From assembly GCF_000380505.1 (NCBI RefSeq), contig NZ_AQYH01000010.1, forward strand, positions 310,001 through 374,000: 64,000 nucleotides of DNA. Reading direction: 5' to 3'. Below the pieces are notes generated by a model. It was given only the letters and a program-made list of their open reading frames with translations. It was not told the origin of the DNA and did not search any database. The first letter of the stretch is position 1. Each line of letters opens with the position of its first letter. Origin of the DNA: Kaistia granuli DSM 23481. GTDB lineage: Bacteria; Pseudomonadota; Alphaproteobacteria; Rhizobiales; Kaistiaceae. Positions 21,905 to 47,927 of this stretch are shown in pieces. The position numbers were made by a program, and so were the translations under genes.

Positions 21905-22777
21905 TTGGATCAGCTATCTCAGCACATAGTCAATGCGCTAATCATGGGTGGAACCTATGCTTTGCTCGGCATTGGCTTGACCCTGATATTCGGGATCATG
22001 CGTATCGTTAACTTTACGCATGGAGAGCTATATGCGCTCGGCGCATATATGATGTACTTCTTCGCGACCATCCTGGGGCTGAATTTCTTCGTCTCCATTG
22101 CGTTCGCCATCGTCGCCGGCATGGCGGTGGGATCGGTGATCGAATTCACGCTGCTCCGACCCAAGCGAGGGGCCGACATCGATACAACGATGTTGCTGAT
22201 GATCGGTGCCTGGATCGTGCTCCAGAATGTCGAGCATCTGACCTGGGGCGGCATCGCCAAGTCGATCCCGTCGCCCTTGCCAGAACAGCCGCTGGTGATC
22301 GGGCCGGTCTCGATCTCCTGGCTTCGGGTCATGGTCCTCGGCGTGTCGTTGTTCCTGATCGCCGCGACCTATGTGCTGATCAATCGTACCAAGCTCGGCA
22401 AGGCGATGCGGGCGACATTCCAGGACGGCGGCACCGCCGCCCTGATGGGCGTCAACGTCAACGCCATCTACACGACGACCTTCGCGCTCGGCTCCGGCCT
22501 CGGCGCCGCCGCCGGAGCGCTGCTCGGCCCGGTCTTCGTGGTGACGCCGACCATGGGCGATCTCGCCTCGCTCAAGGCCTTCGCCATCGTCATCCTTGGC
22601 GGCCTCGGCAACATCACTGGCGCTGCGATCGGCGGCTTCATGCTCGCCTTCGCCGAGGAGATCGGTGCCGGCTACATCTCGTCCGGCTATCGCGACGCCA
22701 TGGGCTTCCTGATCATCATCGTCGTCCTCCTCTTCAAGCCCACGGGCCTGTTCGCACGTTCGGAGCGCATCGGATGA
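21905..22777 (+). CDS. livH: LivH-type ABC transporter permease (island transporter)
   Basis: 290-residue membrane subunit of a branched-chain amino acid type importer. The signature IFGIMRIVNFTHGELYALGAY lies near residues 28-48; about eight hydrophobic segments; ATFQDGGTAALMGVN in the ATPase-contact loop. The start codon is TTG at 21905 with GAGGA five bases before. First gene of livHMGF; no binding-protein gene is in this operon, and the solitary binding protein at the far end of the island (46776-47927) is the likely partner. Cargo unknown; probably the island's substrate. Confidence 0.9.
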   Translation: MDQLSQHIVNALIMGGTYALLGIGLTLIFGIMRIVNFTHGELYALGAYMMYFFATILGLNFFVSIAFAIVAGMAVGSVIEFTLLRPKRGADIDTTMLLMIGAWIVLQNVEHLTWGGIAKSIPSPLPEQPLVIGPVSISWLRVMVLGVSLFLIAATYVLINRTKLGKAMRATFQDGGTAALMGVNVNAIYTTTFALGSGLGAAAGALLGPVFVVTPTMGDLASLKAFAIVILGGLGNITGAAIGGFMLAFAEEIGAGYISSGYRDAMGFLIIIVVLLFKPTGLFARSERIG

Positions 22778-23817
22778 AACGCTTTCTTCCCTATCTCGCC
22801 GTTGCGTTCTTCGCCTCGGTGCCGCTGTGGCTGCAGGACCAGTATTTCCTGCACACGCTGGTGGTCACCGGCATCTTCATCATCGCCGCCATGAGCCTGA
22901 ACCTGCTGCTCGGCTATACCGGCCAGCTCAGCCTCGGCCATGTCGCCTTCTTCGGCATCGGCGCCTATGTCAGCGCGCTGACGTCGCTCGGCTTCAGCCT
23001 GTCGATCTTCGGCGTCCAGATCACGCATGAACCCTGGCCCGCCGTGGTCGGCGTGATCCTCGGCACGATCATCGCCGGTCTCTGCGGCTATCTGATCGGC
23101 AAGCTCGCCTTCCGGGTGCGTGGCGCCTATTTCGTCATCGTCACCATCAGCTTCGCCGAGGTCGTGCGCCTCGTCTCGCTGAACTGGGTCGAGCTGACCA
23201 ACGGGCCGCTGGCATTGCCGGGCATTCCGCCGTTGACGCTTGGCTTCGAGTGGACCGGCTTCGCGACGCTGTGGGGCAAGGGCCAGAACTACTACGTCGT
23301 CCTCGCCACCATCGTGCTCGCCTATGTGCTGATCAAGCGCATCGTCAACTCGCCCTACGGCCGGGCCATGATCGCGCTTCGCGAGAACGAGACCCTGGCG
23401 ACGTCGGTCGGCGTCAGCGTGACGAAATACCTGGTTCTCGCCGCGGTGATTTCCGGCGCGATGGCAGGTACGGCGGGCGGGCTCTACGCCCACTACATCC
23501 AGATCATCGATCCGATGGTCTTCATGTTCCTGAACACGGTGACGATGGTGATCATGGTGATCACCGGCGGCAAGGGCACGCTGGCCGGGCCGCTGGTCGG
23601 CGGGCTGATCTTCGGCATCGCGCCGGTGATCCTGCGCGACTATGTCGGCCCCGAGGTGCAGTGGATCCTCTATGGCCTGCTGATGATCCTGATCGTCTTC
23701 GTCCTGCCCGAGGGCATCGTCCCGGCGGTCGAACGCTGGTTCACCCGCAAGACCGGCAACTCGGCCGCCAAGCGGTCGGCCCTGGTCCTCGAGTCCAGCA
23801 AGGGAGCACGCTCATGA
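22774..23817 (+). CDS. livM: LivM-type ABC transporter permease (island transporter)
   Basis: 347 residues, about nine or ten hydrophobic segments, with the LivM stretch GYTGQLSLGHVAFFGIGAY near residues 47-65 and the loop IALRENETLATSVGV. Start ATG overlaps the LivH stop (ATGA) and its own stop overlaps the LivG start (ATGA), showing translational coupling through the operon. Confidence 0.92.
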   Translation: MKRFLPYLAVAFFASVPLWLQDQYFLHTLVVTGIFIIAAMSLNLLLGYTGQLSLGHVAFFGIGAYVSALTSLGFSLSIFGVQITHEPWPAVVGVILGTIIAGLCGYLIGKLAFRVRGAYFVIVTISFAEVVRLVSLNWVELTNGPLALPGIPPLTLGFEWTGFATLWGKGQNYYVVLATIVLAYVLIKRIVNSPYGRAMIALRENETLATSVGVSVTKYLVLAAVISGAMAGTAGGLYAHYIQIIDPMVFMFLNTVTMVIMVITGGKGTLAGPLVGGLIFGIAPVILRDYVGPEVQWILYGLLMILIVFVLPEGIVPAVERWFTRKTGNSAAKRSALVLESSKGARS

Positions 23818-24608
23818 GCAGCGCAGCGGTTGCGGCGAAGCCGATCCTCGCCGTCGAGCACGTCGCGGTTCATTTCGGCGGGCTGATCGCCATCTCGGAC
23901 ATGAACTTCGACGTCCGCGAGGGCGAACTGGTCAGCCTGATCGGCCCGAACGGCGCCGGCAAGACCACCGCCTTCAACGTCATCACCGGCTTCCTGAAGC
24001 CGACCAAGGGGAGGGTGACGTTCCGCGGCGAGTCGTTGAACGGCTTGAAGCCGCATGAGGTGACGTCGCTCGGACTGGTCCGTACGTTCCAGCGCACCAG
24101 CGTGTTCGAGAAGATCTCGGTCTTCGAGAACGTGCTGATCGGCCTACACCGGCGCACCAAGGCCAGCCTGCTTGGCACCATTCTCGCGCTTCCAAGCGAG
24201 CGCCGGGCCGAGGCCGCCTTGCGGGAGGAGGTCTGGGAGATCCTTCGTCTCGTCGGCATCGATCACCAGGCCGACGAGATGGGCGGCAGCCTGCCTTATG
24301 GCGACCAGCGTCTGCTCGGTGTCGCACTGGCACTCGCCGCCAATCCGTCGGCGCTGCTTCTGGACGAGCCGGTTTCGGGCATGAACGCGTCGGAAACCGG
24401 TCGTTTCATCGACCTGCTCAACAAGCTCCGCGCCAATGGCAAGACCATCCTGCTGGTCGAGCACGACATGCCCATGGTGATGGGCATCTCCGACCGCATC
24501 GTCGTTCTCAACTACGGCCGCATCATCGCCAACGGCACGCCGTCGCAGATCCAGAACGATCCGGACGTCATCCAAGCCTATCTGGGGCAGGGAGTGAAAC
24601 ATGCTTGA
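23814..24608 (+). CDS. livG: LivG-type ABC transporter ATP-binding protein (island transporter)
   Basis: 264-residue ATPase. Walker A GPNGAGKT (about residues 44-51), signature-region LPYGDQRLLGVALAL, Walker B LLLDEPVSGM and H-loop LVEHDM are intact. The start ATG at 23814 overlaps the LivM stop; a longer frame upstream is a shadow of livM. Works with LivF as the nucleotide-binding pair. Confidence 0.92.
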   Translation: MSSAAVAAKPILAVEHVAVHFGGLIAISDMNFDVREGELVSLIGPNGAGKTTAFNVITGFLKPTKGRVTFRGESLNGLKPHEVTSLGLVRTFQRTSVFEKISVFENVLIGLHRRTKASLLGTILALPSERRAEAALREEVWEILRLVGIDHQADEMGGSLPYGDQRLLGVALALAANPSALLLDEPVSGMNASETGRFIDLLNKLRANGKTILLVEHDMPMVMGISDRIVVLNYGRIIANGTPSQIQNDPDVIQAYLGQGVKHA

Positions 24609-25655: not shown

Positions 25656-26321
25656 ATGTCTGAAACGTCGAAGCCGGTCATTGGCATCATCGGAGGAACC
25701 GGCGATCTGGGTTCGGGTCTGGCCAAGTGCTGGGCAACCGCGGGCTACAAGGTCGTGATCGGCTCCCGCTCGCGTGAGAAGGCCGAAGCCCTCGCGCCGG
25801 AACTCGGCGCCGACGTCACCGGCGAGGATAATGTCGGCGCCGCGCGCGCGGCGGACATCGTTATCCTGGCCGTGCCGTTCGCCAGCCACGACGCGACGAT
25901 CAACGAGATCAAGGACGTCGTGCAGGGCAAGATCGTCGTCGACGCCGCCGTGCCGCTGGTGCCGCCGAAAGTCTCCACCGTCCAGCTGCCGAGCGCCGGT
26001 TCCGCAGCGCAGATCGCCCAGCAGTTGCTCGGCGAGAATGTCCGCGTCGTCTCCGCCTTCCACAATGTCGGCGCCACCAAGCTGCACGCCGGCGGCAAGA
26101 TCGATTGCGACGTGCTCGTCTTCAGCGACGACAAGGAAGCCCGCAACGCCGTCATCGAGCTCGCCGGGGCTGTCGCCAATCGCGGCGTCGGCGGCGGCGT
26201 CCTTGCCAATTCGGCCGCGGCCGAGGCGCTGACCTCGGTGCTGATCTGGATCAACCGGACCTACAAGGTTCCGGGCGCCGGCATCGCCATCACCGGCCTT
26301 GAAGACGCCGTCCGGGCTTGA
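25656..26321 (+). CDS. npdG: NADPH-dependent F420 reductase (F420:NADP oxidoreductase)
   Basis: 221 residues. Transfers hydride between NADPH and coenzyme F420; in bacteria it makes F420H2. Rossmann motif GGTGDLGSGLA (residues 13-23) and the NADP-phosphate-binding GSRSREKA (36-43) match the Fno/NpdG family, as do AVPLVPPK and SAFHNVGA. AGGAA six bases before the ATG. First gene of npdG-cofE-cofD-cofC-fbiC, the following genes overlapping or nearly so, a complete F420 biosynthesis and reduction operon. Placing the reductase first suggests the operon exists to supply F420H2. Confidence 0.92.
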   Translation: MSETSKPVIGIIGGTGDLGSGLAKCWATAGYKVVIGSRSREKAEALAPELGADVTGEDNVGAARAADIVILAVPFASHDATINEIKDVVQGKIVVDAAVPLVPPKVSTVQLPSAGSAAQIAQQLLGENVRVVSAFHNVGATKLHAGGKIDCDVLVFSDDKEARNAVIELAGAVANRGVGGGVLANSAAAEALTSVLIWINRTYKVPGAGIAITGLEDAVRA

Positions 26322-26326: not shown

Positions 26327-27102
26327 ATGTCGGCGCCCGCGTCCGTTTCCTTCTTTGCTCTCCGGGGCGTTCCGCTCGTCGAGCCCGGGGATGATCTGGC
26401 CGGCATCCTGCTGGATGCCCTGCGGGACAATGGTCTCGATCTGGTCGAGGGTGACATCCTCGTTCTCGCCCAGAAGATCGTCTCCAAGGCGGAAGGGCTC
26501 TATGTCGAGCTCGACACGGTCGAGCCGTCCGAGCGGGCGCTGGAGCTGGCGAAGAAGGTCGGCAAGGATCCGCGCCATGTCGAGGTGGTGCTCTCCGAGT
26601 CCGACGAGATCGTCAAGGTCGGGCCGCATGTGATCGTCGCGGCGCATCGGCTCGGCTTCGTCATGGCGAACGCCGGCATCGACGAATCCAACATCAGCCA
26701 TGGCGATGGCGATGGCGGCGGCCGCGTGCTGCTCCTCCCGCGCGACCCGGACGGGTCGGCGGCGGAACTGAAGCGCCGGCTGGAAGAGGCGTCCGGAGTC
26801 ACGATCGGCGTCGTCATCAATGACAGCTTCGGCCGCCCCTGGCGCAACGGCGTCGTCGGCGTGGCGCTGGGCGCGGCCGGCGTACCCTCGCTGGTCGATC
26901 GCATCGGCAGCCAGGACCTGTTCGGCCGCAAGTTGAAAGTCACCGAGATCGCGGTCGCCGATGAGCTGGCCTCCGCCGCCTCGCTGCTGATGGGGCAGGC
27001 CGATGAAGGCGTCCCCGTTGTCCTAATCCGCGGTGTCCGCTTCACCGCGCCCGAAAACCCCGCCAAGTCGCTGATCCGAAGCCGCGAGAGGGATATGTTC
27101 CG

Positions 27103-27106
<4 letters not shown>
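26327..27106 (+). CDS. cofE: Coenzyme F420-0:L-glutamate ligase (CofE)
   Basis: 259 residues. Adds gamma-linked glutamates to F420-0 using GTP. The CofE domain fills the whole protein, from the GVPLVEPGDDL start through ILVLAQKIVSKAEG, VVINDSFGRPWRNG and GVALGAAG. It lacks the extra C-terminal FMN reductase domain of actinobacterial FbiB, so any dehydro-F420 reduction must be done elsewhere or not be needed. Starts five bases after npdG and overlaps cofD by four bases. Confidence 0.93.
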
Positions 27107-28097
<991 letters not shown>

Positions 28098-28101
<4 letters not shown>

Positions 28102-28802
28102 CCCCGATCCTCGCCGGTCCGGACGTCTGGGCGCTGGTCCCCGTCAAAAAGCTCGATCGGGCCAAGTCGCGTCTCGCCGACATCCTGGATCCGGCCGACC
28201 GCAAGCAGCTCGCCCGGGCGATGCTGTCGGATGTGCTCGGCACGCTGGTCCGGGTCGAGGGCCTTGCCGGTATCCTCGTCGTCACCAGCGACGTCGAGGT
28301 CGCGGCGCTGGCGACCGAGCATGACGCGGCCGTGATCGCCGATCCGCCGGAAACTGGCTTCAACGAGGCGGTGCTGCACGGCATGCGCTGGCTCGATGAC
28401 CGCTATCATGCCGGCGCCGTTGTGGTCCCCGGCGACATTCCTTTCGTCACGGTGGCGGAGCTGGACGCGGTGCTCGCCGCGACGGGCGAGAGCCCGATCG
28501 TCGTGGTTCCCGCCACGCGCGACGGCGGCACCAACATGCTGGCGGTCGCGCCGCCCTTGCTGATGCCGCCCGCCTTCGGTCCCGACAGCTTCGCCCGGCA
28601 CGTCGCCGCCGCGCATGCGCTCGGCATCACGCCGCAGACATTGCGGCTCGAGGGCGCCGGCCACGACATCGACGTCGCGGCTGATCTCTTCATCGAAGCC
28701 GGGGCAGGGCGGGCGAGCCACACGCGCGCCTGTCTCGGCCGTCTTCTCGGCGTCTCTCTCCCGGTTGCCGCGGGTTCATCCAAGGAGGCATTTTTGCCAT
28801 GA
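28098..28802 (+). CDS. cofC: CofC/FbiD-type phospho-(lactate/enolpyruvate/glycerate) guanylyltransferase
   Basis: 234 residues, nucleotidyltransferase fold with VPVKKLDRAKSRLAD near the N terminus (residues 14-28, binds GTP), GDIPFVTVAEL and RDGGTNMLAVAPP. Activates the three-carbon phospho-acid for CofD. Family members differ in substrate: 2-phospholactate in archaea, phosphoenolpyruvate in mycobacteria, 3-phosphoglycerate in a few bacteria; I cannot tell which applies here. Overlaps cofD and fbiC by four bases each. Confidence 0.92.
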
Positions 28803-31228
28803 GCATCCAGACGCTTCTCGCCGATTTTGCCCACGACCGCCGGCTGACCCGCGACGAGGCGCTCGGGCTGGTCGATATGGATGACCTGTCGCCGCTGTTG
28901 GCCGCTGCCTCGGCGCGGCGCGACTTCGCCCATGGCGACCTCGTCTCCTATTCGCGAAAAGTCTTCATTCCGCTGACGCAGCTCTGCCGGGACGTTTGCC
29001 ATTATTGCACCTTCGCCCATCCGCCGCGGAAGGGCGAACGCGCCTTCCTGACGCGCGAGGAGGTTCTGGCGATCGCCGTGGCCGGCAAGAAGGCCGGCTG
29101 CAAGGAGGCGCTGTTCACGCTCGGCGACAAGCCGGAGCTGCGCTACAAGATCGCTCGCGAGGAACTCGCCGCGCTCGGCCACGAGACGACCTTGTCCTAT
29201 CTGGCCGAGATGGCCGAGATGGTCTACCGCGAGACCGGCCTGCTGCCGCATGCCAATCCGGGATTGCTGACCGATGCCGACCTCGTCGCGCTGCGCCGGG
29301 TCTCGATATCGCAGGGCATCATGCTGGAGAGCACCTCGGAGCGGCTTTGCGCCAAGGGCGGCGCCCATTACGGCTCGCCCGACAAGCTGCCGGCAGCGCG
29401 TCTCGACACCATCCGTCGCGCCGGCGAGCAGGCGGTCCCCTTCACCTCCGGTATCCTGATCGGCATCGGCGAGACGCGCGCCGAGCGCATCGACGCGCTG
29501 CTGGCGCTGCGCGAGCTGAACGATGCGCATGGCCACATCCAGGAGATCATCGTCCAGAATTTCCGGCCCAAGGCCGATACCAAGATGGCTGACGTCGAGG
29601 CGCCGTCTGAAGAAGACCACCTCTGGACCATCGCCATCACGCGTCTGATCTTCGAGCCGGAGATGAACATCCAGGCGCCGCCAAATCTGAGCCCGGGCGC
29701 GCTGCCGCAGATCGTCGCTGCCGGCATCAATGATTGGGGCGGCGTCTCGCCGGTCACGCCGGACCACGTCAATCCCGAGGCGCCGTGGCCGCATGTGCAG
29801 GAGCTCGCCGAGGCGACCCGCGCCGCCGGCAAGGAACTGACCGAACGGCTGGCTATCTATCCGGCGCATGCGCGCCATTCGCTGCGCTGGGTCGATCCGG
29901 CGCTGCGGACCGGCCTCTACAATCTCGTCGATGGCGACGGCTGGCCGCGCAGCGACAGCTGGTGTCCGGGCCGCGCCGATCCGCTGCCGCAGAACGATGT
30001 CGCGCTGCTGCGGGCCAAGGCGCCGTCTTCGACCAAGGCGCCTTCCGCCAGCAAGGCCGAAGTACGGGCGATCCTCGACAAGGCGATGGCCGCCAAGGCG
30101 CTGAGCGAAGCCGAGATCGTGCGGCTATTCCGGGCGCGTGGCGAGGAGTTCACGGCCGTCTGCGCCGCCGCCGACGAGCTTCGCCGCAAGGTGAATGGCG
30201 ACATCGTCAGCTACGTCGTCACCCGCAACATCAACTACACCAATGTCTGCTACTTCAAATGCCAGTTTTGCGCCTTCTCGAAGGGCAAGATGAGCGAGAA
30301 CCTGCGCGGCCGTCCCTATGATCTGGAGATGGAGGAAGTCGCGCGCCGGGTGCGCGAGGCGGCCGAGCGCGGGGCGTCGGAAGTCTGCATGCAGGGCGGC
30401 ATCCATCCCTCCTATACCGGCCGGAAATATCTGGAGCTCTGCCAGGCGGTGAAGGAAAGCGTGCCCGGCATGCACATGCATGCCTTCTCGCCGCTCGAGG
30501 TCTCGCAGGGCGCCAAGACGCTCGGCATTCCGGTGGCCGAGTTCCTGCAGCAGCTGAAGGTGGCCGGGCTCAATACCTTGCCCGGCACGGCGGCCGAGAT
30601 CCTCGACGACGAAGTGCGGGCGCTGCTCTGCGCCGACAAGGTCAACACCGCCGAGTGGCTCGACGTCATGCGCACCGCGCACGGCCTCGGCTACCGCTCG
30701 ACCGCCACGATCATGTTCGGCCATATCGAGCGCTACGAGCACTGGGCGCGCCATCTGATCCGCGTCCGCGATCTGCAGGCGGAGACCGGCGGCTTCACCG
30801 AGTTCGTGCCGCTGCCCTTCGTCCACATGGAGGCGCCGATCTACCTCAAGGGCAAGTCGCGGCCGGGGCCGACCTTCCGGGAAGTGATGTTGATGCATGC
30901 GGTGGCGCGCCTGGCGCTGCACCCGCACATCACCAATATCCAGGCTTCCTGGGTCAAGCTCGGTCCGGACGGCGTACGGCATTGCCTGAATGCCGGCGTC
31001 AACGATCTTGGCGGCACGCTGATGGACGAGAGCATCTCGCGCTCCGCCGGCGCCAGCCACGGCCAGGAAATGACGCCACAGCGGATGGAGGAAATCATCC
31101 GCACGGCCGACCGCCTGCCGCGCCAGCGCAACACGCTCTACGGCCATCCGCCGACCGATCTCTACGAGCGTTCCTTCTCGCCGCGCCAGGACATTTCGGC
31201 GCCGCCTGAGCCCGCCTACGCCAACTGA
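28799..31228 (+). CDS. fbiC: FbiC, Fo synthase (CofG-CofH fusion, two radical SAM domains)
   Basis: 809 residues. Makes the deazaflavin Fo from tyrosine and 5-amino-6-ribitylaminouracil. The N-terminal CofG half has Cys63-x3-Cys67-x2-Cys70 (CRDVCHYC); the C-terminal CofH half has Cys484-x3-Cys488-x2-Cys491 (CYFKCQFC). The two halves are joined by a linker around residues 400-425 rich in Ala, Ser and Lys. Fused FbiC is the actinobacterial-type arrangement, also found in some proteobacteria; archaea use two proteins. Last gene of the F420 operon, followed by a perfect hairpin. Confidence 0.96.
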   Translation: MSIQTLLADFAHDRRLTRDEALGLVDMDDLSPLLAAASARRDFAHGDLVSYSRKVFIPLTQLCRDVCHYCTFAHPPRKGERAFLTREEVLAIAVAGKKAGCKEALFTLGDKPELRYKIAREELAALGHETTLSYLAEMAEMVYRETGLLPHANPGLLTDADLVALRRVSISQGIMLESTSERLCAKGGAHYGSPDKLPAARLDTIRRAGEQAVPFTSGILIGIGETRAERIDALLALRELNDAHGHIQEIIVQNFRPKADTKMADVEAPSEEDHLWTIAITRLIFEPEMNIQAPPNLSPGALPQIVAAGINDWGGVSPVTPDHVNPEAPWPHVQELAEATRAAGKELTERLAIYPAHARHSLRWVDPALRTGLYNLVDGDGWPRSDSWCPGRADPLPQNDVALLRAKAPSSTKAPSASKAEVRAILDKAMAAKALSEAEIVRLFRARGEEFTAVCAAADELRRKVNGDIVSYVVTRNINYTNVCYFKCQFCAFSKGKMSENLRGRPYDLEMEEVARRVREAAERGASEVCMQGGIHPSYTGRKYLELCQAVKESVPGMHMHAFSPLEVSQGAKTLGIPVAEFLQQLKVAGLNTLPGTAAEILDDEVRALLCADKVNTAEWLDVMRTAHGLGYRSTATIMFGHIERYEHWARHLIRVRDLQAETGGFTEFVPLPFVHMEAPIYLKGKSRPGPTFREVMLMHAVARLALHPHITNIQASWVKLGPDGVRHCLNAGVNDLGGTLMDESISRSAGASHGQEMTPQRMEEIIRTADRLPRQRNTLYGHPPTDLYERSFSPRQDISAPPEPAYAN

Positions 31229-31304: not shown

Positions 31305-31362
31305 TGATAGCCTGATTTGGCCGTTGAGTGGGGCGGCTGAATGGGGACGGGAGCTAGCAGAG

Positions 31363-32865
<1,503 letters not shown>

Positions 32866-35639: not shown

Positions 35640-35654
35640 GCCGTCTTGCCAAAA

Positions 35655-35680
35655 GCCCCCGCGCGTTACCGCGCGGGGGC
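35655..35680. terminator. Strong GC hairpin between LLM and M20 genes
   Basis: Perfect 11-base stem GCCCCCGCGCG / CGCGCGGGGGC with loop TTAC. No T run. Could be a partial terminator or an mRNA-stability element inside the operon. Confidence 0.5.
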
Positions 35681-35738
35681 GGGCCGCTGCCATTCGCGGA
35701 AGAACAACAACGTCCAGAAGGATTCCGGGGACTTCTCC

Positions 35739-37086: not shown

Positions 37087-37147
37087 ATGCGCGTTTCGCT
37101 CTGGGGTTGTGCCCTGAGGTGGCTATTAATTTCGACATCAATAGTTT

Positions 37148-37165
37148 CTATCTTACTATAAATAG
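37148..37165. promoter_or_regulatory. Shared island motif, copy 3 (upstream of pnt operon)
   Basis: CTATCTTACTATAAATAG; core TCTTACTAT at 37151-37159. Preceded by ATAGTTTCTAT (37141-37151), itself a small dyad. TACTAT could also act as a -10 box with TCGACA 16 bases upstream. About 110 bases before the pntAA start. Confidence 0.45.
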
Positions 37166-37271
37166 GTTGATTCTATTTTGCGCTGGGCGCAGTGTGGGCT
37201 CGATGTCAGGGCAAATGACCGTGGGGGCACACTGTCGGCTCTGCCGTCTTGCCAGTTCAGGAGACGAGGCC

Positions 37272-38411: not shown

Positions 38412-38567
38412 CCGGCTTCGCCGGCCGGCCGCGCTGACGCGGCTTCATTCCTAGTTCCATCGGCCAGCCGCAGGACGGCTCGGCACAACTCCCGCGGGCG
38501 ACCGCGGGGGAACGACCTTTCTTGCGCCGCCCTCCGCGACGGCCGGTCATAATTTTGGAGGATCGTC

Positions 38568-38891
38568 ATGACGTCTACCGCCGTCATTCAGCTGTTTGTT
38601 TTCGTGCTCGCCGGCTTTGTCGGCTTCCAGGCCATCACCCGCGTGCCGCCGTTGCTGCACACGCCGCTGATGGCAGCGACCAACGCCATCTCCGGCATTT
38701 CACTCGTCGCCTCGATCGTGCTCGCCGGCGCCAATCAGAGCCTGCTGAGCACGGTGCTCGGTACCATCGCCGTCGGTTGCGCCATGGCCAATGTCGTCGG
38801 CGGCTTCCTGATCACCGACCGCATGCTCGCCATGTTCGACAAGGCCAAGGCCACCAAGCAGGGGGAGCGCGCGAGCGCTAAGGTCCATTGA
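38568..38891 (+). CDS. pntAB: NAD(P) transhydrogenase subunit alpha part 2 (PntAB)
   Basis: 107-residue membrane subunit with three hydrophobic segments (about 7-25, 38-58, 63-83). The family's GFQAITRVPPLLHTPLMAAT and NAISGI near residues 17-43 are conserved. A 156-base gap with GC hairpins separates it from pntAA; TTGGAGGATCGTC precedes the ATG. The stop codon overlaps the pntB start. Confidence 0.93.
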   Translation: MTSTAVIQLFVFVLAGFVGFQAITRVPPLLHTPLMAATNAISGISLVASIVLAGANQSLLSTVLGTIAVGCAMANVVGGFLITDRMLAMFDKAKATKQGERASAKVH

Positions 38892-40276
38892 TCGACGTCT
38901 TCATCCAACTGGCCTATCTGCTGGCCTCGGTCCTCTTCATCTTCGCGCTGCGTTCGCTGAGCCGCCCGGATACGGCGCGGCGCGGCATGCAGCTCGCCGC
39001 CTTCGGCATGTTCATCGCCGTCGCCGCGACGCTGCTGCATACGCGCATCGTCACCTATGAGTGGATCCTCATCGGCGCCGCCGTCGGCGCGCTGATCGGC
39101 TACCCGCTCGGCATGTGGGTGCCGATGACGGCGATGCCACAGCGCATCGCCTTCAGCCACGCCTTCGGTGCGCTGGCCGCCACCCTCGTCGGCATCGGCG
39201 AATATGCGCATCTCTATCATGAGCAGAGCCTGACCCGCGGCGTCATGACGGCGCTCGGCTTCGAAGTGCTGCTCGGCGCGCTGACGGTGACGGGAAGCTT
39301 GATGGCCTTCGGCAAGCTGCAGGAACTGCTGCCCGGCCGGCCGATCACCTTCCCCTTCCAGAATTTCTTCAACCTGGCTCTCTTCGCGCTGGGCGTCGCC
39401 GGCCTCATCTGGGTCGTGATTTTCCCCTATGACGTCTGGGTCTTCGGCCTCATCTGCGTGATTGGCCTGCTCGTCGGCATCCTGATCGTCATGCCCATCG
39501 GCGGCGCGGACATGCCGGTCGTCGTCTCGCTGCTCAACGCCTATGCCGGCCTCGCCGCCGTAGCGACCGGCTTTGCCCTCGACAATAACGTGCTGATCGT
39601 GGTTGGCGCACTGGACGGCGCCAGCGGCTTCATCCTCTCGGTCGCCATGAGCAAGGCGATGAACCGCTCCTTCGCCAACGTGCTGTTCGGCGCCTTCGGT
39701 TCCGCGAGTGGCCCGGACGAGGCGACCGCTTCCGGAGCCTCCGGCGAAATGACGGCGATCCAGGTCGACGACGCGGCGTTGCGCCTCGCCTTCGCCAATC
39801 GCGTCATCATCGTGCCGGGCTACGGCCTCGCCGTCGCGCAGGCCCAGCACCAGGCGCGCGAACTGGTCGACCTCCTGGAGAAGCGCGGCGTCGACGTACG
39901 CTTCGCCATCCATCCGGTTGCCGGCCGCATGCCCGGGCACATGAACGTGCTGCTCGCCGAGGCGGGAATCTCCTACGACAAGCTGATCGACATGGAGGAC
40001 ATCAACGAGCGCTTTGCCGGCACCGACGTGGCGCTGGTGGTGGGTGCCAACGACGTCGTCAATCCGGCGGCGCGCACCAACAAGAGCTCGCCGATCTACG
40101 GCATGCCGATCCTCAACGTGTCGGAAGCCACAAGCGTCATCGTGCTGAAGCGCGGCAAGGGCGCCGGCTTCTCGGGCGTCGAGAACGATCTCTTCGTCGC
40201 CCCGAAGACGACGATGCTGTTCGGCGATGCCAAGGAGTCGCTGACGCGGCTGGGCGCAGAGGTCAAGTTGGCCTAG
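38888..40276 (+). CDS. pntB: NAD(P) transhydrogenase subunit beta (PntB)
   Basis: 462 residues. The N-terminal two-thirds is membrane (about nine hydrophobic segments) and forms the proton path with PntAB; the C-terminal NADP(H)-binding domain III has VPGYGLAVAQAQHQ, HPVAGRMPGHMNVLLAEA, VVGANDVVNPAA and RGKGAGFSGVEN. The start codon appears to be TTG at 38888, sharing bases with the TGA of pntAB (TTGA). Followed by a hairpin. Confidence 0.93.
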   Translation: MIDVFIQLAYLLASVLFIFALRSLSRPDTARRGMQLAAFGMFIAVAATLLHTRIVTYEWILIGAAVGALIGYPLGMWVPMTAMPQRIAFSHAFGALAATLVGIGEYAHLYHEQSLTRGVMTALGFEVLLGALTVTGSLMAFGKLQELLPGRPITFPFQNFFNLALFALGVAGLIWVVIFPYDVWVFGLICVIGLLVGILIVMPIGGADMPVVVSLLNAYAGLAAVATGFALDNNVLIVVGALDGASGFILSVAMSKAMNRSFANVLFGAFGSASGPDEATASGASGEMTAIQVDDAALRLAFANRVIIVPGYGLAVAQAQHQARELVDLLEKRGVDVRFAIHPVAGRMPGHMNVLLAEAGISYDKLIDMEDINERFAGTDVALVVGANDVVNPAARTNKSSPIYGMPILNVSEATSVIVLKRGKGAGFSGVENDLFVAPKTTMLFGDAKESLTRLGAEVKLA

Positions 40277-40495: not shown

Positions 40496-42862
40496 ATGAC
40501 TGAACAGGGTGTTGGCGCGTCCTTGCTCCGGAAGGAGGATGATCGCTTCCTCCGCGGACGCGGCCAGTATGTTGCCGATATCCGCCTGCCCGGCATGAAG
40601 GACGTCGCCTTCGTTCGCTCGCCGCTGGCCCATGCCAGGATCGCTGGCATCCGCATTCCCGACGCGAATCGCGACCGCATCTATGTCGCCGCCGACCTTG
40701 AGGGCGTGAAGCCGATCGTCGCGGTGTCCGGTCTCGCCGGCTTCAAGGTGTCCGAGCAGCCGGTACTGGCCTTCGAGAAGGTGCGCCAGGTCGGGGAGCT
40801 GCTCGCGGTCTGCGTCGGCGCGTCGCGCGCCGAGGCCGAGGACCTCGCCGCCTCGGTCGAGCTCGATCTCGACGAATTGCCGGCCCTGCACGACATGATC
40901 GCCGCCCGCAAGCCCGGCGCCGCCCTGGTGCACGAGCATTGGGGCGACAACGTCTTTCTCGAGACCTTCGTCGATGTCAACATGGAGGCCGCCTACGACG
41001 CCCCGATCAAGGTGACGCGCGAGATCTCGACGGCGCGCCAGAGCATGGCGCCGATGGAAGGGCGCGGCACCGTAGCCGTCTGGGACAAGCGGATGGAGCA
41101 GCTCGTGCTCCATACCGGCAGCCAGATGCCGCACATCGTCCGCACCGGCCTCGCCGAATGCCTCGGCCTCGGCCAGGAGCAGGTCCGCATCGTTTCGCCG
41201 GATGTCGGCGGCGGCTTCGGTTACAAGGGCATCCTGCTGCCCGAGGACATCTGCCTCGCCTTCCTCGCCATGAAGCTCGACCATCCAGTGCGTTGGATCG
41301 AGGATCGCCGCGAACATCTGACGGCCGGCGCCAATTGCCGCGAGCACCATTACATCATCACCGGCTATGCCGACCGCGACGGTAAGCTGCGCGGTATCGA
41401 GTGCGAGGCGACCGTCGATTCCGGCGCCTATTCGTCCTATCCGTTCTCGGCCTGCCTGGAGGCGGCGCAGGTCGCCAGCATCCTGCCGGGCCCCTATGAT
41501 TTCCCGTCCTATCGCTGCCGCACCTGGTCGGTCGCCACCAACAAGTGCCCGATCCTGCCGTATCGCGGCGTCGCCCGTACCGGCGTCTGCTACGCCCTCG
41601 AGCTGGTCCTCGACGCGATCGCCCGCGAAGCGGGGATCGAGCCGCATGAAGTTCGGCTGAAGAACCTCGTCCAGCCCGAGCAGATGCCGTTCGACAACAT
41701 CACCCGCAAGCATTTCGACTCGGGCGACTATCCCGAGGCGCTGCAGCGCGCCATGGCGGCGATTGACCTCGAAGGCATCCGTGCCCGGCAGCGCCAGGGC
41801 GAGCCGGACGGGCGGCTTATCGGCATCGGACATTCGATCTATTGCGAGCAGGGCGCGCATGGCACCTCGGTCTATGCCGGCTGGGGCATTCCGATGGTGC
41901 CCGGCCATGAACAGGCGACGGCGCGGATGACGCCGGATGGTGGCCTCGAAATCCGCGTCGGCGTGCATTCGCATGGCCAGAGCATGGAGACGACGCTGCC
42001 GCAGGTCGCGCACGAGATCCTCGGCATCGACACCGCCAAGATCAAGCTCGTGCATGGCGATACCGAATACACGCCCTATTCGACGGGCAGCTGGGGCTCG
42101 CGTTGCGCCGTGATGGCGGGTGGCGCGGTGGCGACGGCGGCGCGCGAAGTGGCCGGTCTCGCCAAGGGGATCGGTGCGCATCTGCTGCAGGCCGATGTCG
42201 CCGACGTGAAGCTGGTCGATGGTCATGTCGTCGGCCCGAGCGGCAGCGTCTCTCTCGAGACGGTCGCCTTCACCTGGTACCGCCGGCCGCAGGACCTGCC
42301 GGCCTCGGTCGACCCGCGCGGACTGGAATCGACGATCGGCTACAAGCCGGTGCGCGATTCCGGCACGTTCAGCTACGCCGCGCACGCGGTTGTCGTCGCC
42401 GTGGACCCGGAAATGGGCGACATCGAGATCCTCGACTACGTCATCGTCGAAGACGGCGGCAAGCTGATCAATCCGATGGTCGTCGATGGCCAGATCTATG
42501 GCGGCCTGGCGCAGGGCATCGGCACGGCGCTCTACGAGGAGATGAACTTCGACGCCTCCGGCCAGCCGCTGGCTTCGACCTTCGCCGACTATCTGTTGCC
42601 CGGCCCGACCGAGGTGCCGGCCCCGCGCCTCGATCACATGGAGACGCTGGCGCCCTATACCGAATTCGGCGTCAAGGGCATCGGCGAGGGCGGCGCCATC
42701 GCACCGCCGGCCGCGATCGGCAACGCCGTCAACGACGCGCTCAAGGGCTTTGGCGCCGAACTGCTGCGCTCGCCGATGACGCCGAGGCGGGTGCTGGAGG
42801 CGATTCAAAGCGCGAAGCAATCAAAGGAAGTCCTTGAAATGACTCAGGGAGAGATGGCGTGA
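40496..42862 (+). CDS. Molybdenum hydroxylase large subunit (xanthine dehydrogenase/CoxL family, form II)
   Basis: 788 residues. Binds molybdopterin cytosine dinucleotide and hydroxylates a substrate carbon with water as oxygen source. Conserved parts: DVGGGFGYKG, PYRGVARTG near residue 358, GVHSHGQSMETTL, and the catalytic glutamate Glu731 in VKGIGEGGAIAPPAA. The PYRGVAR loop shows this is not a true CO dehydrogenase, which carries a cysteine in the AYxCSFR loop. The arrangement L-M-S with four-base overlaps is the operon order here. Best read as a hydroxylase for an N-heterocycle or aldehyde; substrate unknown. Confidence 0.9.
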   Translation: MTEQGVGASLLRKEDDRFLRGRGQYVADIRLPGMKDVAFVRSPLAHARIAGIRIPDANRDRIYVAADLEGVKPIVAVSGLAGFKVSEQPVLAFEKVRQVGELLAVCVGASRAEAEDLAASVELDLDELPALHDMIAARKPGAALVHEHWGDNVFLETFVDVNMEAAYDAPIKVTREISTARQSMAPMEGRGTVAVWDKRMEQLVLHTGSQMPHIVRTGLAECLGLGQEQVRIVSPDVGGGFGYKGILLPEDICLAFLAMKLDHPVRWIEDRREHLTAGANCREHHYIITGYADRDGKLRGIECEATVDSGAYSSYPFSACLEAAQVASILPGPYDFPSYRCRTWSVATNKCPILPYRGVARTGVCYALELVLDAIAREAGIEPHEVRLKNLVQPEQMPFDNITRKHFDSGDYPEALQRAMAAIDLEGIRARQRQGEPDGRLIGIGHSIYCEQGAHGTSVYAGWGIPMVPGHEQATARMTPDGGLEIRVGVHSHGQSMETTLPQVAHEILGIDTAKIKLVHGDTEYTPYSTGSWGSRCAVMAGGAVATAAREVAGLAKGIGAHLLQADVADVKLVDGHVVGPSGSVSLETVAFTWYRRPQDLPASVDPRGLESTIGYKPVRDSGTFSYAAHAVVVAVDPEMGDIEILDYVIVEDGGKLINPMVVDGQIYGGLAQGIGTALYEEMNFDASGQPLASTFADYLLPGPTEVPAPRLDHMETLAPYTEFGVKGIGEGGAIAPPAAIGNAVNDALKGFGAELLRSPMTPRRVLEAIQSAKQSKEVLEMTQGEMA

Positions 42863-43698
42863 AGCCGGTCAATTTCGACTATGCGCGGCCGGCAGATGTC
42901 GGCGCGGCGCTCGCTCTCCTGGCCGACGACACGCTCGCGGTTAAGATCATGGCCGGCGGCCAGTCGCTGGGGCCGATGCTCAACATGCGGCTGGTCCAGC
43001 CCGATCTGCTGGTCGATATCGCCGGCATCGAGGAACTGAAGCAGGTGACGGACCGGCCGGACGAGATCGTCTTCGGCGCCTGCATCACCCATGCCGACAT
43101 CGAGGACCGGCGCGTTCCGGACGTGACGCGCGGCGCGCTGCCTAGCGTCGCCAACGGCATCGCCTACCGGGCGGTGCGCAATCGCGGCACGGTCGGCGGC
43201 AGCCTCACCCATGCGGATCCGTCGGCCGACTGGATTTCGATACTTTCCGCCGTCGGGGCCCGGGTGACGCTGCGCGGCCCGGCCGGCAACCGCACGATCG
43301 CCGTCGAGGACTACATGCTCGGCGCGCTCGAGGCGGATCTCCGTCCCGGCGAGATGCTCGTCTCCGTCACCGTGCCCAAACTCGGCCGGTCGGCGCGCTG
43401 GGGCTACTACAAGAGCTGCCGCAAGACGGGCGAATTCGCCCATGCGATCGGCGCCTTCCTGTCCGATCCGGAACGGGGTGTCAGCCGCGTCGTCATCGGC
43501 GCCACCGAGAGCCGGCCGATCGTCGTCACCGATGCGCAGCATCTGATTGGGGACGGCCGGGCGGAGCGCCTCGATCGGGTCTTTGACAGCCACGCCGCCG
43601 CCGAAGCGATCGCCGCTGCCGGCATGGCCGATCCGATCGACCGGCAGACCCATGTCGTCGCGCTCCGGCGCGCCATCGAGCGAGCCTATTCAGCATGA
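42859..43698 (+). CDS. Molybdenum hydroxylase FAD subunit (CoxM type)
   Basis: 279 residues. FAD-binding motifs AGGQSLGPMLNMRL (about residues 32-45) and RNRGTVGGSLTHADPSADW (about 110-128) match the CoxM/XdhB-type medium subunit. Passes electrons from the Fe-S subunit to the final acceptor. Overlaps both neighbours by four bases. Confidence 0.93.
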   Translation: MKPVNFDYARPADVGAALALLADDTLAVKIMAGGQSLGPMLNMRLVQPDLLVDIAGIEELKQVTDRPDEIVFGACITHADIEDRRVPDVTRGALPSVANGIAYRAVRNRGTVGGSLTHADPSADWISILSAVGARVTLRGPAGNRTIAVEDYMLGALEADLRPGEMLVSVTVPKLGRSARWGYYKSCRKTGEFAHAIGAFLSDPERGVSRVVIGATESRPIVVTDAQHLIGDGRAERLDRVFDSHAAAEAIAAAGMADPIDRQTHVVALRRAIERAYSA

Positions 43699-44927
43699 AC
43701 ACCGTCACTCTCAAGGTAAACGGCAAGCCGGCCAGCGCCGACATCGAAGCGCGCATGCATCTGGCCGATTTCCTGCGCGACACCCAGAACCTGACCGGCA
43801 CGCATATCGGCTGCGAGCATGGCGTCTGCGGCGCCTGCACCATCCTGGTCGACGGCGTGCCGACGCGCTCCTGCATCACCTTCGCCGTTGCCTGCGAGCA
43901 GGCCGAGGTGACCACCGTCGAAGGGCTCGATGCCGACGAGGTGGCGACGGAACTGCGAGCTGCCTTCAGTAAGGAGCATGGGCTCCAGTGCGGCTATTGC
44001 ACGCCCGGCATGATCGTCTCGGCCCGCGACGTCGTGCTGCGCATGCAGGAGCCGACCGAGCACGAGATCCGCGTGGCGATGAGCGGCAATCTCTGCCGCT
44101 GCACCGGCTATGTCGGCATCGTCCGCGCCATCCAGGGCGTGATCGCGGCGCGACGCGCGCGCGGCATTGCCGCCATTCCCGGCGGCGACCATCGCAAGGC
44201 ACTTGGCCCGGCCGGATCCGGCCATGCCACGGCCTCCGCCAACGGTACGGCCACGCGCATCCGGACCAGTCCGGCGGCTCCCGCCCTGGCGGCGGCGACC
44301 CCGGCGAAGGCTGCCGCGGCCCCGCGCCAGGAAGCTGACTGGAAGCCGCAGACGACCTTCACCGAGAGCTTCGTCGTCGGCCATCCGGTCGATGAGGTCT
44401 GGGCGTTCTTCGACCGTATCGGCGAAGTCGCGTCCTGCCTGCCGGGAGCGTCGCTCGCCGGAGAGCCGGTCGACGGCCATGTCGAGGGCCAGATCCGCAT
44501 CAAGGTCGGGCCGATCTCGGCCGAGTTCCAGGGCGTGGCCGACGTCAGTCGCGACGAGGCGACCCGAACCGGCACGATCAACGGCTCTGGCAAGGACAAG
44601 CGCAGCAATTCGGCGACGCGCGGCCTGATCGGCTATGCCGTCAAGCCGGGCGACAAGCCCGGGGAGACCCGCGTCGATGTCAGCATCGGCTACACGCTGA
44701 CCGGTGTTCTGGCACAGTTCGGCCGGTCCGGGCTGGTGCAGGATGTCGCCGGCCGGCTGATCGCCGCCTTCGTCAAGAATCTGGAGGCCAAGCTTTCGCA
44801 TCAGTCCGGTGGCGGGGACGCCGAGGCGCCGCCCGTCATCACGGAGCTCGATGCGGGATCGCTGGTGTCTTCGGTCATCCTGGGCCGGATCAAGCGGTTC
44901 TTTGCCGCGCTGTTCGGTCGCCGCTGA
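43695..44927 (+). CDS. Fusion of Mo-hydroxylase 2Fe-2S subunit and CoxG (SRPBCC) domain
   Basis: 410 residues. Residues 1-160 are the CoxS-type subunit with both 2Fe-2S sites: Cys40, Cys45, Cys48, Cys60 (plant-type) and Cys99, Cys102, Cys134, Cys136 (LCRCTGY). An Ala/Pro/Thr-rich linker (about 160-215) leads to a CoxG/SRPBCC domain (about 220-375, FVVGHPVDEVWAFFDRIGEVASCLPG) and a basic amphipathic tail (about 390-410) that could touch the membrane. CoxG in carboxydotrophs helps anchor CO dehydrogenase at the membrane, so this fusion may attach the enzyme to the respiratory chain. No internal stop or start suggests two separate genes. Confidence 0.92.
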   Translation: MNTVTLKVNGKPASADIEARMHLADFLRDTQNLTGTHIGCEHGVCGACTILVDGVPTRSCITFAVACEQAEVTTVEGLDADEVATELRAAFSKEHGLQCGYCTPGMIVSARDVVLRMQEPTEHEIRVAMSGNLCRCTGYVGIVRAIQGVIAARRARGIAAIPGGDHRKALGPAGSGHATASANGTATRIRTSPAAPALAAATPAKAAAAPRQEADWKPQTTFTESFVVGHPVDEVWAFFDRIGEVASCLPGASLAGEPVDGHVEGQIRIKVGPISAEFQGVADVSRDEATRTGTINGSGKDKRSNSATRGLIGYAVKPGDKPGETRVDVSIGYTLTGVLAQFGRSGLVQDVAGRLIAAFVKNLEAKLSHQSGGGDAEAPPVITELDAGSLVSSVILGRIKRFFAALFGRR

Positions 44928-45941: not shown

Positions 45942-45964
45942 GGCCTGATGCGGAGCATCAGGCC
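45942..45964. terminator. Hairpin after the GntR gene
   Basis: GGCCTGATGC / GCATCAGGCC with a three-base loop. No T run on either side. Confidence 0.45.
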
Positions 45965-46165
45965 CGGAATCGCAATCTCCGACCGCAGCCGTGTCCGGAC
46001 CTCGTTCGTCGAGGTCGATCTCGTTCGCCGCAAGGTCGGACCAAGATCGGGCGCAGGTTTCAATAGATATTTCCCGCTTGAAGCCGAGCAAGTTCATTGC
46101 AATTGTGACGCGAACTGCGCTCTACTTGCGAGGTCTGGTGAAAGGTTCTTGCGGGGAGTTGTGTT

Positions 46166-46663
46166 TTGCAAAGTGAAACTGCTAACGGGCCGTCAGGGCT
46201 TGATCGCTTCGATCTGGCGATCTTGGCTATTCTGCAGCGGGACAACACGACGCCGCAGCGTCTGATCGGCGAGCAGGTGCACCTCTCCGCCGCCGCCGTG
46301 CATCGTCGCATCCGCCGCATGGAGGCGGACGGGGTGATCGCCGGCAATGTCGCCAGCGTCGATCCGGGCCGTGTCGGACGGCCGCTCACCATCGTCGTCG
46401 AAGTCCATATCGAGAGCGAGAGGCTGGATCTGCTCGACGGCGCCAAGAAGAGCTTCGCCGAGGCGCCGGAAGTGCAGCAATGCTACTACGTCACCGGCGA
46501 TGCCGACTTCGTCCTGATCGTCACGGTCGCGACGATGAGCGAATATGAGGCGCTGACGCGCCGCCTGTTCTTCCAGAACCACAATGTGAAGCGCTTCCGC
46601 ACCCTGGTGGTAATGGATCGCATCAAGACCAGCCTCGCCGTGCCGCTGGACGCCGTCGGCTAG
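46166..46663 (+). CDS. Lrp/AsnC family transcriptional regulator
   Basis: 165 residues: AsnC-type helix-turn-helix (about 12-60, LDRFDLAILAILQRDNTTPQ... HLSAAAVHRRIRRMEADG) and RAM ligand-binding domain (about 72-150). The start is TTG at 46166 with GGGGAG nine bases before. These proteins commonly respond to amino acids. It is convergent with the solitary binding-protein gene and next to the amino-acid oxidase/dehydrogenase pair, so it may control either. Confidence 0.9.
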   Translation: MQSETANGPSGLDRFDLAILAILQRDNTTPQRLIGEQVHLSAAAVHRRIRRMEADGVIAGNVASVDPGRVGRPLTIVVEVHIESERLDLLDGAKKSFAEAPEVQQCYYVTGDADFVLIVTVATMSEYEALTRRLFFQNHNVKRFRTLVVMDRIKTSLAVPLDAVG

Positions 46664-46724
46664 ACCCTTTCGCTGGGGGCACGAGCCGCCTTCGACCTTG
46701 CCCGAACGACATTCTGGACAAAGA

Positions 46725-46757
46725 AAAGCCCCGGCGAGCGGATGCTGCCGGGGCTTT
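46725..46757. terminator. Bidirectional terminator between Lrp and binding-protein genes
   Basis: AAAGCCCCGGC / GCCGGGGCTTT with an 11-base loop; A-rich before, T-rich after, working for both convergent genes. Confidence 0.8.
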
Positions 46758-46775
46758 CTGTCGTTTCGGTTGTGA

Positions 46776-47927
46776 CTACGGCAGCGTGACCTTGCCGTCG
46801 ACGATCGTCACCAGCGTGCCGTTCGCCATGTACTGGCCGCTTTCCCGGCCTTCCGGGCCGTCCTTGACGAAGGTGACGGTGCCGTTGAGCGTCGGCACGG
46901 AGATCTGCCAGAACGCATCGCGGATCGCCTTCGGCTCGGCGACGCCGGCCTTCTCGATGGCGGCCTTGATGACGTGGATGCCGTCATAGCCGCGATAGCT
47001 CTCGGTCAGGCCGGCGCTGCCATGGCCAGCCTTGGCCCAGGCGTCGATGAAGGCCTTGGCCTGGTCGGGATGCGGGGTCTTGGCCGGATCCCACGGCGCG
47101 AAGAACACCATGTGCATGGTGTTGTTGGCGGCGGAGCCGGCCTGCTCGATCAGCTGGTCGGGGTTCTGCGAACCGCCCGTGGTGATGATCCGCTTGGTGA
47201 TGCCGAGCGCCGCCGCCTGCTTCAGGACCAGCGTCAACTGCTCGACGGCGGTGGTGACGATGATGGTGTCGGAGTCGGACGACTTGATCTTGGAGAGCTG
47301 CGCGCTCATGTCCTGCGCGGCCTGGTCCATGATCTCGGACAGCCCGACCTCGACGCCGTTCTCCTTGAACATCGCCGTGAAGTCGGTGATCGTCCCGCGA
47401 CCCCAGTCATTGTTGATGGCGAGGAAGTCGACCTTCTTGATGCCGAGATCCGGCAGCAGGGTCTTGAACAAGGCCGCCTCGACGAAGGAGGGCGGCGAGA
47501 TGCGGAAGATGAACGGATTGCCCTGCTTGGTGATCTTGCTGGACGACGACGTCTCCACCAGCATCGGCACTTCATACTGCATCAGCTTCGGCATGGCGGC
47601 GAGCGTCAGGCTGGAGCCCCAGGCGCCCATCATGACCGGCACCTTGTCGCGCTCGATCAGCTTCTCGGCGACCGCGGCGGCTTCGGTCGGGTTGCTCTTA
47701 TTGTCTTCGATCACGAGCTCGATCGGATTGCCGAGAACGCCGCCGGCGGCGTTGATCTGCTCGACGGCGATCTTGGCGCCGTCGACGATATAGGTGCCGG
47801 AGGCCGCGAACGGTCCGGTGAGGGGCTGGTTGACGCCAATCTTGATCGCGTCAGCAGCCGACAGGCCGGTCGTCGCCATGAGAAGCGACAAGGCCAGCAT
47901 CGGGATGGAAGTTCTTGTCATAGGCAT
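46776..47927 (-). CDS. LIV-type periplasmic binding protein (solitary, likely partner of livHMGF)
   Basis: 383 residues. Sec signal peptide at residues 1-26 (LALSLLMATTGLSAADA), then a Peripla_BP_6 domain opening with IKIGVNQPLTGPFAASG and ending in VTFVKDGPEGRESGQY. No permease or ATPase gene adjoins it, whereas livHMGF at the opposite end of the island lacks a binding protein, so the two probably form one importer. The ATG at 47925-47927 has GAGGAGA five bases before; a longer frame upstream lacks protein character. A motif copy lies about 145 bases upstream. Confidence 0.9.
   Translation of the reverse strand: MPMTRTSIPMLALSLLMATTGLSAADAIKIGVNQPLTGPFAASGTYIVDGAKIAVEQINAAGGVLGNPIELVIEDNKSNPTEAAAVAEKLIERDKVPVMMGAWGSSLTLAAMPKLMQYEVPMLVETSSSSKITKQGNPFIFRISPPSFVEAALFKTLLPDLGIKKVDFLAINNDWGRGTITDFTAMFKENGVEVGLSEIMDQAAQDMSAQLSKIKSSDSDTIIVTTAVEQLTLVLKQAAALGITKRIITTGGSQNPDQLIEQAGSAANNTMHMVFFAPWDPAKTPHPDQAKAFIDAWAKAGHGSAGLTESYRGYDGIHVIKAAIEKAGVAEPKAIRDAFWQISVPTLNGTVTFVKDGPEGRESGQYMANGTLVTIVDGKVTLP

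Follow-up and report, generated by a model that had tools for sequence, protein, structure and literature searches.

The locus in Kaistia granuli

The window analysed here is a stretch of 64,000 nucleotides (positions 310001-374000 of contig C10) in the 4.77-Mb genome of the alphaproteobacterium Kaistia granuli DSM 23481. It carries a catabolic block of about 28 kb, from 19.9 to 48.0 kb of the window, in which genes for the synthesis and reduction of coenzyme F420 stand among genes for uptake and degradation. An initial annotation made from the letters alone had named the genes from livH to a solitary binding protein gene. Annotation and profile scores find all of them in place and on one strand, except the binding protein gene, which does close the block together with an Lrp gene but lies on the minus strand. 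The diaminopropionate ammonia-lyase (DAPAL) gene at the left edge had been overlooked, although it is part of the set and recurs in relatives. The genes follow one another in this order (bits are profile scores unless a structure is named; pyridoxal phosphate is abbreviated PLP):

19878-21083, minus: DAPAL, left edge of the block; PRK08206 521.3 bits, structure 4d9g in the Protein Data Bank 263.7 bits
21905-25320, plus: livH-livM-livG-livF, HAAT-type ABC uptake
25656-26321, plus: npdG, NADPH-dependent F420 reductase; TIGR01915 184.9 bits (cut-off 149.8)
26327-27106, plus: cofE, F420-0:glutamate ligase; TIGR01916 297.4 bits (cut-off 180.65)
27103-28101, plus: cofD; TIGR01819 297.9 bits (cut-off 257.45)
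28098-28802, plus: cofC; TIGR03552 159.4 bits (cut-off 105)
28799-31228, plus: fbiC, fused CofG-CofH, FO synthase; NF006687 1160 bits (cut-off 1018)
31324-32865, plus: cysteine-synthase-like PLP enzyme (PALP2) of 513 aa with extra N- and C-terminal parts
32903-34631, plus: class I CoA-transferase subunits A and B (coaA, coaB); nearest solved structure glutaconate CoA-transferase 1poi
34653-35639, plus: LLM oxidoreductase of the TIGR03619 F420 family, a proposed F420H2-dependent reductase; 185.6 bits (cut-off 166.9)
35646-37022, plus: M20 amidohydrolase of ArgE/DapE type; TIGR01910 276.5 bits (cut-off 217.6)
37107-40276, plus: pntAA-pntAB-pntB, proton-translocating transhydrogenase (pntAB at 38568-38891)
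40496-44927, plus: molybdenum (Mo) hydroxylase large (MoL), medium (FAD) and small (2Fe-2S plus CoxG domain) subunits; quinoline 2-oxidoreductase 1t3q 479.5 bits
45157-45924, plus: GntR-UTRA regulator
46166-46663, plus: Lrp/AsnC regulator
46776-48011, minus: solitary periplasmic binding protein

Within livHMGF, npdG-fbiC, coaAB-LLM-M20 and the three Mo-hydroxylase genes, neighbours overlap by 1-8 bases or are separated by short gaps, and the five F420-related proteins and the LLM all exceed the curated NCBIfam cut-offs. The binding protein is likely the partner of LivHMGF; its gene adjoins liv or DAPAL genes in several relatives. Branched-chain amino acid transport was rejected as the role of the liv genes on the strength of their position in the block. 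The Lrp and DAPAL genes form a divergent pair in the genomes of three relatives (L029, L038 and L061).

Comparison with three sister genomes that do not carry this LLM gene places the right boundary of the island between 48011 and 48365. From the aldehyde dehydrogenase gene at 48.4 kb rightwards these sisters have the same backbone, and left of that gene no window gene was matched within the 18 kb compared. Being part of this common backbone, the dehydrogenase itself (L-piperidine-6-carboxylate dehydrogenase, at 48365) was rejected as a member of the island. The LLM gene occurs in three of 14 genomes of the genus at 96-100% identity (96% for that of Kaistia adipata), and the sisters share the backbone without the island; the island is thus accessory.

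Conservation and linkage of the LLM and F420 genes

Searching genomes with the LLM yielded 203 confirmed relatives; the best 80 of them, a list that ends near 60% identity, were analysed together with flanks of at most 10 kb. Contig ends reduce 35 of these loci to less than 20.9 kb and leave 45 with full flanks. Neighbours were counted with floors of 35-40% identity and 80 bits, or 26% identity for PLP enzymes. The coaA-coaB pair lies directly upstream of the LLM gene in 78 of the 80 relatives; the other two loci, cut by contig ends, start at the LLM gene or 455 bases before it. Within 10 kb, at least one F420-related gene is found in 34 of the 45 full-flank loci, fbiC in 27, M20 in 28, MoL in 25, PALP2 in 31, GntR in 24 (29 of all 80) and pntB in 12. 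At the lower identity floor, a PLP enzyme of the beta family (PALP2 or DAPAL as query) is present in 43 of them.

All 45 full-flank genomes have F420-related genes, with an FO synthase shown in 41; it was not sought in the other four (L017, L018, L020 and L024). Seven of the loci have only npdG, cofE or cofD nearby, and three of these seven genomes (L016, L019 and L021) have FbiC farther off. The FbiC query matched 23 of the 25 genomes searched, seven of them as weak CofH-like matches (37-39%), and each of these seven has CofG and CofE above cut-off; L053, one of the two without a match, has CofE and a CofG fragment.

The same linkage appears in a sample of 347 genomes drawn from the order of the window genome. 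FbiC is matched in 37 of them, as a fused protein in 19 (in one case as two overlapping pieces) and as separate CofG/CofH-type proteins in 18, a split made by manual reading of the match rows. The LLM gene is found in 11 genomes, all with a fused FbiC; fbiC lies on the same contig in all 11, no more than 4 kb away except in one genome, where the distance is 13 kb. The initial annotation held that F420 genes in unrelated places in related genomes would count against it, and neither these positions nor those in the full-flank relatives, 34 of 45 of which have an F420-related gene within 10 kb, refute its claim. Its description of a degradation locus supplied with F420 by genes of its own is supported. 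The 11 of 11 LLM carriers with fbiC compare with 26 of 336 genomes without the LLM (Fisher p = 4.6e-12, a value that overstates the evidence because of shared ancestry). Eight genomes of the sample belong to the genus of the window: the window genome has LLM and fbiC, and the other seven have neither. LLM and FbiC distances between genomes are correlated (r 0.80, n 40, none of 2000 permutations as high, matches with less than 70% query coverage or 40% identity dropped), as are those of other gene pairs tried, in a comparison made without species-tree control.

Several observations concern F420 genes outside this arrangement. The 18 genomes of the order sample with separate CofG/CofH-type proteins (e.g. 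G175, G197 and G219) lack this LLM, which points to FO or F420 having a further role there. Two genomes (G233 and G004) have two fbiC copies each; in G233 the copy at a distance of 2 kb from the LLM gene is 74% identical, the other, located elsewhere, 59%. In Nitrospinota-like metagenome-assembled genomes (MAGs; L074, L075, L077 and L078), the coaAB-M20-LLM genes stand beside UbiD-family decarboxylases, a CysK-like gene and another LLM that is about 30% identical; F420 synthesis in these MAGs uses a separate CofG. A nitroreductase-family gene recurs near F420 genes (L032:7773-8474; after fbiC in the L057, L060 and L061 genomes) and may, we assume, encode a free-standing dehydro-F420 reductase comparable to the C-terminal half of FbiB. 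A carbonic anhydrase gene adjoins fbiC in the L061 genome (L091:14154-14972).

Symbiosis megaplasmids of Sinorhizobium

In a plasmid collection, the LLM gene was found in 12 records, all from Sinorhizobium and all typed as conjugative. The island lies there on symbiosis megaplasmids in nearly the same order as in the window. In strains GR4, KH46 and KH35c of the alfalfa symbiont S. meliloti it reads pyrC-livHMGF-npdG-cofEDC-fbiC-coaAB-LLM-M20-pnt-MoLMS-binding protein-DAPAL with GntR reversed, spans 26.46 kb from pyrC to GntR in GR4, and encodes proteins 51-90% identical to those of the window. Gene set and order are thus those of the window, with the differences that PyrC, binding protein and DAPAL genes are in line, GntR is reversed and PALP2 was not found. 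The PLP enzyme named in the initial annotation is present and cysteine-synthase-like in K. granuli, but its absence from the matches in the Sinorhizobium version indicates that it is not essential.

A genome-wide association study (GWAS) of nodule competitiveness located associated k-mers in a 26 kb region of pSymA that is present only in GR4, KH35c and KH46 among the study strains (PMC8407117). The functions given separately for this region are FbiA, FbiC, LivF, PntA/B, a 'caffeine dehydrogenase', glutaconate CoA-transferase, an F420-dependent enzyme, DAPAL, M20, dihydroorotase and GntR; in its accessible parts the study proposes no pathway and states that the role of F420 merits more attention (PMC8407117). 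As strain names, size and gene list agree, the island appears to be this region. The initial annotation knew of no proteobacterial pathway with this gene set. None was found, but apparently the same 26-kb region had been published as this S. meliloti association hit. In S. fredii, a GTP cyclohydrolase II gene (L085:5925-7031; PRK08815 477.5 bits, cut-off 464) lies beside the island and could feed the FO precursor pathway.

Catabolic enzymes of the island

The DAPAL scores above the PRK08206 cut-off of 276 bits, though not above that of TIGR03528, and keeps K75, D123 and D192 in all 17 aligned sequences; we take this lysine and the two aspartates to be catalytic. Of 22 genomes searched for it, 17 have it beside the island: near the LLM gene in 13 and, in four betaproteobacterial ones, near fbiC on the island contig. 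The contig of the DAPAL match was equated with the island contig by coordinates only in L006, L009, L013 and L038. Three of the other five have no DAPAL match at E 1e-60 and two have a match elsewhere. An L-serine ammonia-lyase gene is present in 13 of the 80 loci, directly after the LLM gene in 12 (L042 650.4 bits, cut-off 345.1), and the Nitrospinota-like locus L075 has a plain CysK-like enzyme. Beta-substituted alanines are the substrates of the families to which DAPAL, the cysteine-synthase-like PALP2 and serine dehydratase belong. The pathway therefore probably includes a compound of this kind, of which 2,3-diaminopropionate is the simplest.

Both CoA-transferase subunits match glutaconate CoA-transferase (1poi) best, and Glu54 of subunit B, which aligns with what we take to be the catalytic glutamate of class I CoA-transferases in 1poi_B, is kept in 80 of 80 relatives. 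The dehydratase or decarboxylase of the glutamate fermentation served by that enzyme is, in contrast, not among the annotated island proteins. M20 residues H133, D166 and E200 are kept in 42 of 42 aligned sequences. The nearest solved structure of MoL is quinoline 2-oxidoreductase. An assignment to the aerobic CO dehydrogenase CoxL was rejected (533.8 against 950 bits and 457.2 against 991.15 bits); the motif stretch reads PYRGVAR, compared with the AYRCSFR motif of CoxL. In four Betaproteobacteria in whose islands M20 was not found, LLM is followed directly by two acyl-CoA carboxylase genes, for a carboxyltransferase and for a biotin carboxylase/BCCP, ahead of pnt (L057:10967-14529; same place in L055, L060 and L061).

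Candidates for a ring-opening enzyme vary with lineage: dihydroorotase-type PyrC in five Sinorhizobium records, L057 and L011; PxpA with PxpB and/or PxpC in L026, L055, L057, L060 and L076; a fusion of HyuA/HyuB oxoprolinase type in L067. PxpABC is weakened as a universal ring opener, as PxpA was not found in the window genome nor in seven of nine others, and an open reading frame at 5668-6696 of L084 taken for PyrC is a helicase, the PyrC gene of L084 being at 7305. Hydrolysis of a cyclic amide in a carboxylate-bearing ring is established for dihydroorotate and 5-oxoproline, and 2-oxoimidazolidine-4-carboxylate is an oxoprolinase ligand. Since all these candidates hydrolyse such an amide, they point to a lactam or cyclic ureide that bears a carboxylate and is built on an N-C-C-N core. 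The N-heterocycle proposed as substrate in the initial annotation remains plausible and is narrowed by the recurrent ammonia-lyase, 5-oxoprolinase and dihydroorotase neighbours.

A putative F420-dependent reductive pathway and its alternatives

As predicted from its sequence, the island has genes for import, for making F420, for reducing it (NpdG) and for generating NADPH (Pnt) beside those for LLM, CoA-transferase, Mo-hydroxylase, M20 and DAPAL. It is, on balance, probably a mobile and self-sufficient catabolic island for an aerobic reductive pathway that degrades an N-heteroaromatic carboxylate to a diaminopropionate-type amino acid; for a reductive N-heterocycle pathway ending in diaminopropionate, our confidence is moderate. 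The following course would suit these enzymes. The N-heteroaromatic carboxylate would be imported, and hydroxylation by the Mo-hydroxylase would turn it into a lactam or cyclic ureide. The LLM with F420H2 would then reduce a ring double bond, probably on the CoA thioester, and the CoA-transferase would pass CoA from the product to new substrate. A cyclic amidohydrolase (PyrC, PxpABC or an oxoprolinase in relatives) would open the ring, M20 would remove an acyl or carbamoyl group, and the resulting diaminopropionate-type amino acid would be split to pyruvate and ammonia. Pnt and NpdG would spend proton-motive force, keeping F420H2 high for the uphill reduction. Substrate, reaction order and the CoA step are inferred. 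Reduction at the thioester level is favoured because coaAB are the most constant partners of the LLM, Glu54 is invariant and an acyl-CoA carboxylase pair follows the LLM in some relatives. A nicotinate-type reductive route was provisionally set aside since it gives no diaminopropionate.

The LLM is very probably F420-dependent, with the cofactor genes travelling along with it, because the coaAB-LLM order is kept, fbiC is present in 11 of 11 carriers and F420-related genes in 45 of 45 full-flank genomes. The window genome itself encodes F420 synthesis, and the case for a dedicated F420 supply for one catabolic set is strong. Some observations weigh against the preferred reading. Eleven of the 45 full-flank loci, mostly from Betaproteobacteria and Nitrospinota-like MAGs, have no F420 gene nearby, though all have such genes elsewhere (FbiC in eight, separate CofG and CofE in three Nitrospinota-like MAGs), on the island contig in four betaproteobacterial genomes (L055, L057, L060 and L061). 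A Vicinamibacteria MAG with a partial locus (L041) gave no FbiC match and no CofG or CofE above cut-off. The window genome has seven other LLM-family genes, although paralogues also occur in sister species without fbiC; that F420 serves one pathway only, as initially claimed, is likely but unproven. The association with nodule competitiveness, finally, rests on few strains and is not causal proof. These LLM paralogues and L041 would also suit an FMN-dependent LLM with which the F420 genes are merely clustered, and comparison of the LLM fold with F420 and FMN enzymes was tied; the co-occurrence, the TIGR03619 score above cut-off and the presence of NpdG and Pnt in the same gene run nevertheless make this very improbable.

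The closest known system is the reductive uric acid pathway, which in Escherichia coli proceeds through XdhD-YgfK-SsnA-HyuA-YgeW-YgeY-YgeX and which is described there in anaerobic metabolism (PMC12507026). A Mo-hydroxylase family enzyme, reductive dearomatization, a cyclic amidohydrolase, M20 and DAPAL leading to pyruvate are common to both, and Chloroflexota have uricolytic clusters with a putative F420-dependent LLM (PMC12507026). The island might accordingly be read as uric acid (yanthine) degradation in an aerobic version driven by F420, with the Mo-hydroxylase as XdhD, the LLM as YgfK, PyrC or Pxp as ring hydrolase, M20 as YgeY and DAPAL as YgeX. Four to five steps match in function and the ending, M20 followed by DAPAL, is the same. 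We nonetheless consider this unlikely: the marker SsnA, for which no genome-wide search was made, YgeW and YgfK are not among the annotated island proteins, nor is any other amidohydrolase of the SsnA kind, and M20 (134.3 and 91.3 bits) and DAPAL (333.4 bits for TIGR03528) fall below the YgeY and YgeX equivalog cut-offs (321 and 321.5; 532.25). Moreover, MoL is nearest to quinoline 2-oxidoreductase among solved structures and the CoA-transferase has no role there; own F420 synthesis, Pnt and the HAAT transporter are further additions of the island.

Similarly doubtful is a route in which the PLP enzyme would first cut the alanine from a beta-substituted alanine, for example a heterocyclyl-alanine or similar non-protein amino acid of plants, leaving the freed heterocycle to the Mo-hydroxylase, LLM and CoA-transferase. 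The PLP families concerned do act on such alanines, and carriage on symbiosis plasmids and an amino-acid-type ABC uptake system would agree with it, but occurrence in Nitrospinota MAGs suggests a commoner compound and TTT and TRAP carboxylate transporter genes lie near some relatives. In actinobacterial picrate catabolism (npd genes), NpdG, encoded within a degradation cluster, reportedly supplies the reduced F420 from which hydride passes to an aromatic ring; F420 is said to be made elsewhere in the genome there, and hydride transferase and substrates to differ from those of the island.

F420 in Proteobacteria

Why Proteobacteria synthesize F420 was called an unanswered question in a 2021 review, which also states that no F420-dependent enzyme had been experimentally studied in F420-producing bacteria outside Actinobacteria and that two Alphaproteobacteria yielded only traces of F420 (PMC8498797). 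Such traces would be consistent with a cofactor whose synthesis serves an inducible niche pathway. Since that review, the structure of at least one such enzyme, the F420-dependent glucose-6-phosphate dehydrogenase of Thermomicrobium, has been determined (9hav). Another article merely notes F420 genes in a Rhizobiales species (PMC5794936). Full-text literature searches, which leave most subscription papers outside, found no described pathway with this gene set. The island bears both on the role of F420 in Proteobacteria and on the nodule-competitiveness region of S. meliloti: cofactor genes that sit and travel with one recurrent catabolic set are a concrete candidate answer to the first question. 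Considerably more speculative, and rather unlikely in its entirety, is a fuller version of the pathway, in which CoA-activated, F420H2-driven aerobic dearomatization of an N-heteroaromatic acid to 2,3-diaminopropionate, mobile with its cofactor genes, would be a main reason why Proteobacteria make F420 and would, on symbiosis megaplasmids, use a root compound and help to decide which strain wins the nodule. Substrates compatible with this version would be imidazole-4-carboxylate, 5-aminouracil or an acid derived from a pyrazine or a purine. The initial annotation as a whole is partly supported.

Neighbouring genes

Left of the DAPAL gene, a histidine kinase and a LuxR-type response regulator (16115-18756) are also found in an island-bearing sister genome, G393 (73% and 84%). 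A tRNA-Met gene at 2178 was rejected as integration site, since no stretch of at least 14 of its bases recurs exactly elsewhere in the window. Of three candidate protein families that were set aside (u241, u312 and u110), u241 had no match in Pfam and probably represents an antisense frame. The backbone right of the island (48365-55418) encodes, in addition to L-piperidine-6-carboxylate dehydrogenase, a DAO-family oxidase, CorA and cytochrome bd subunits. A carbamoyltransferase with the Pfam domains Carbam_trans_N and _C, presumably of NodU/CmcH type, is encoded at 8199-10028.

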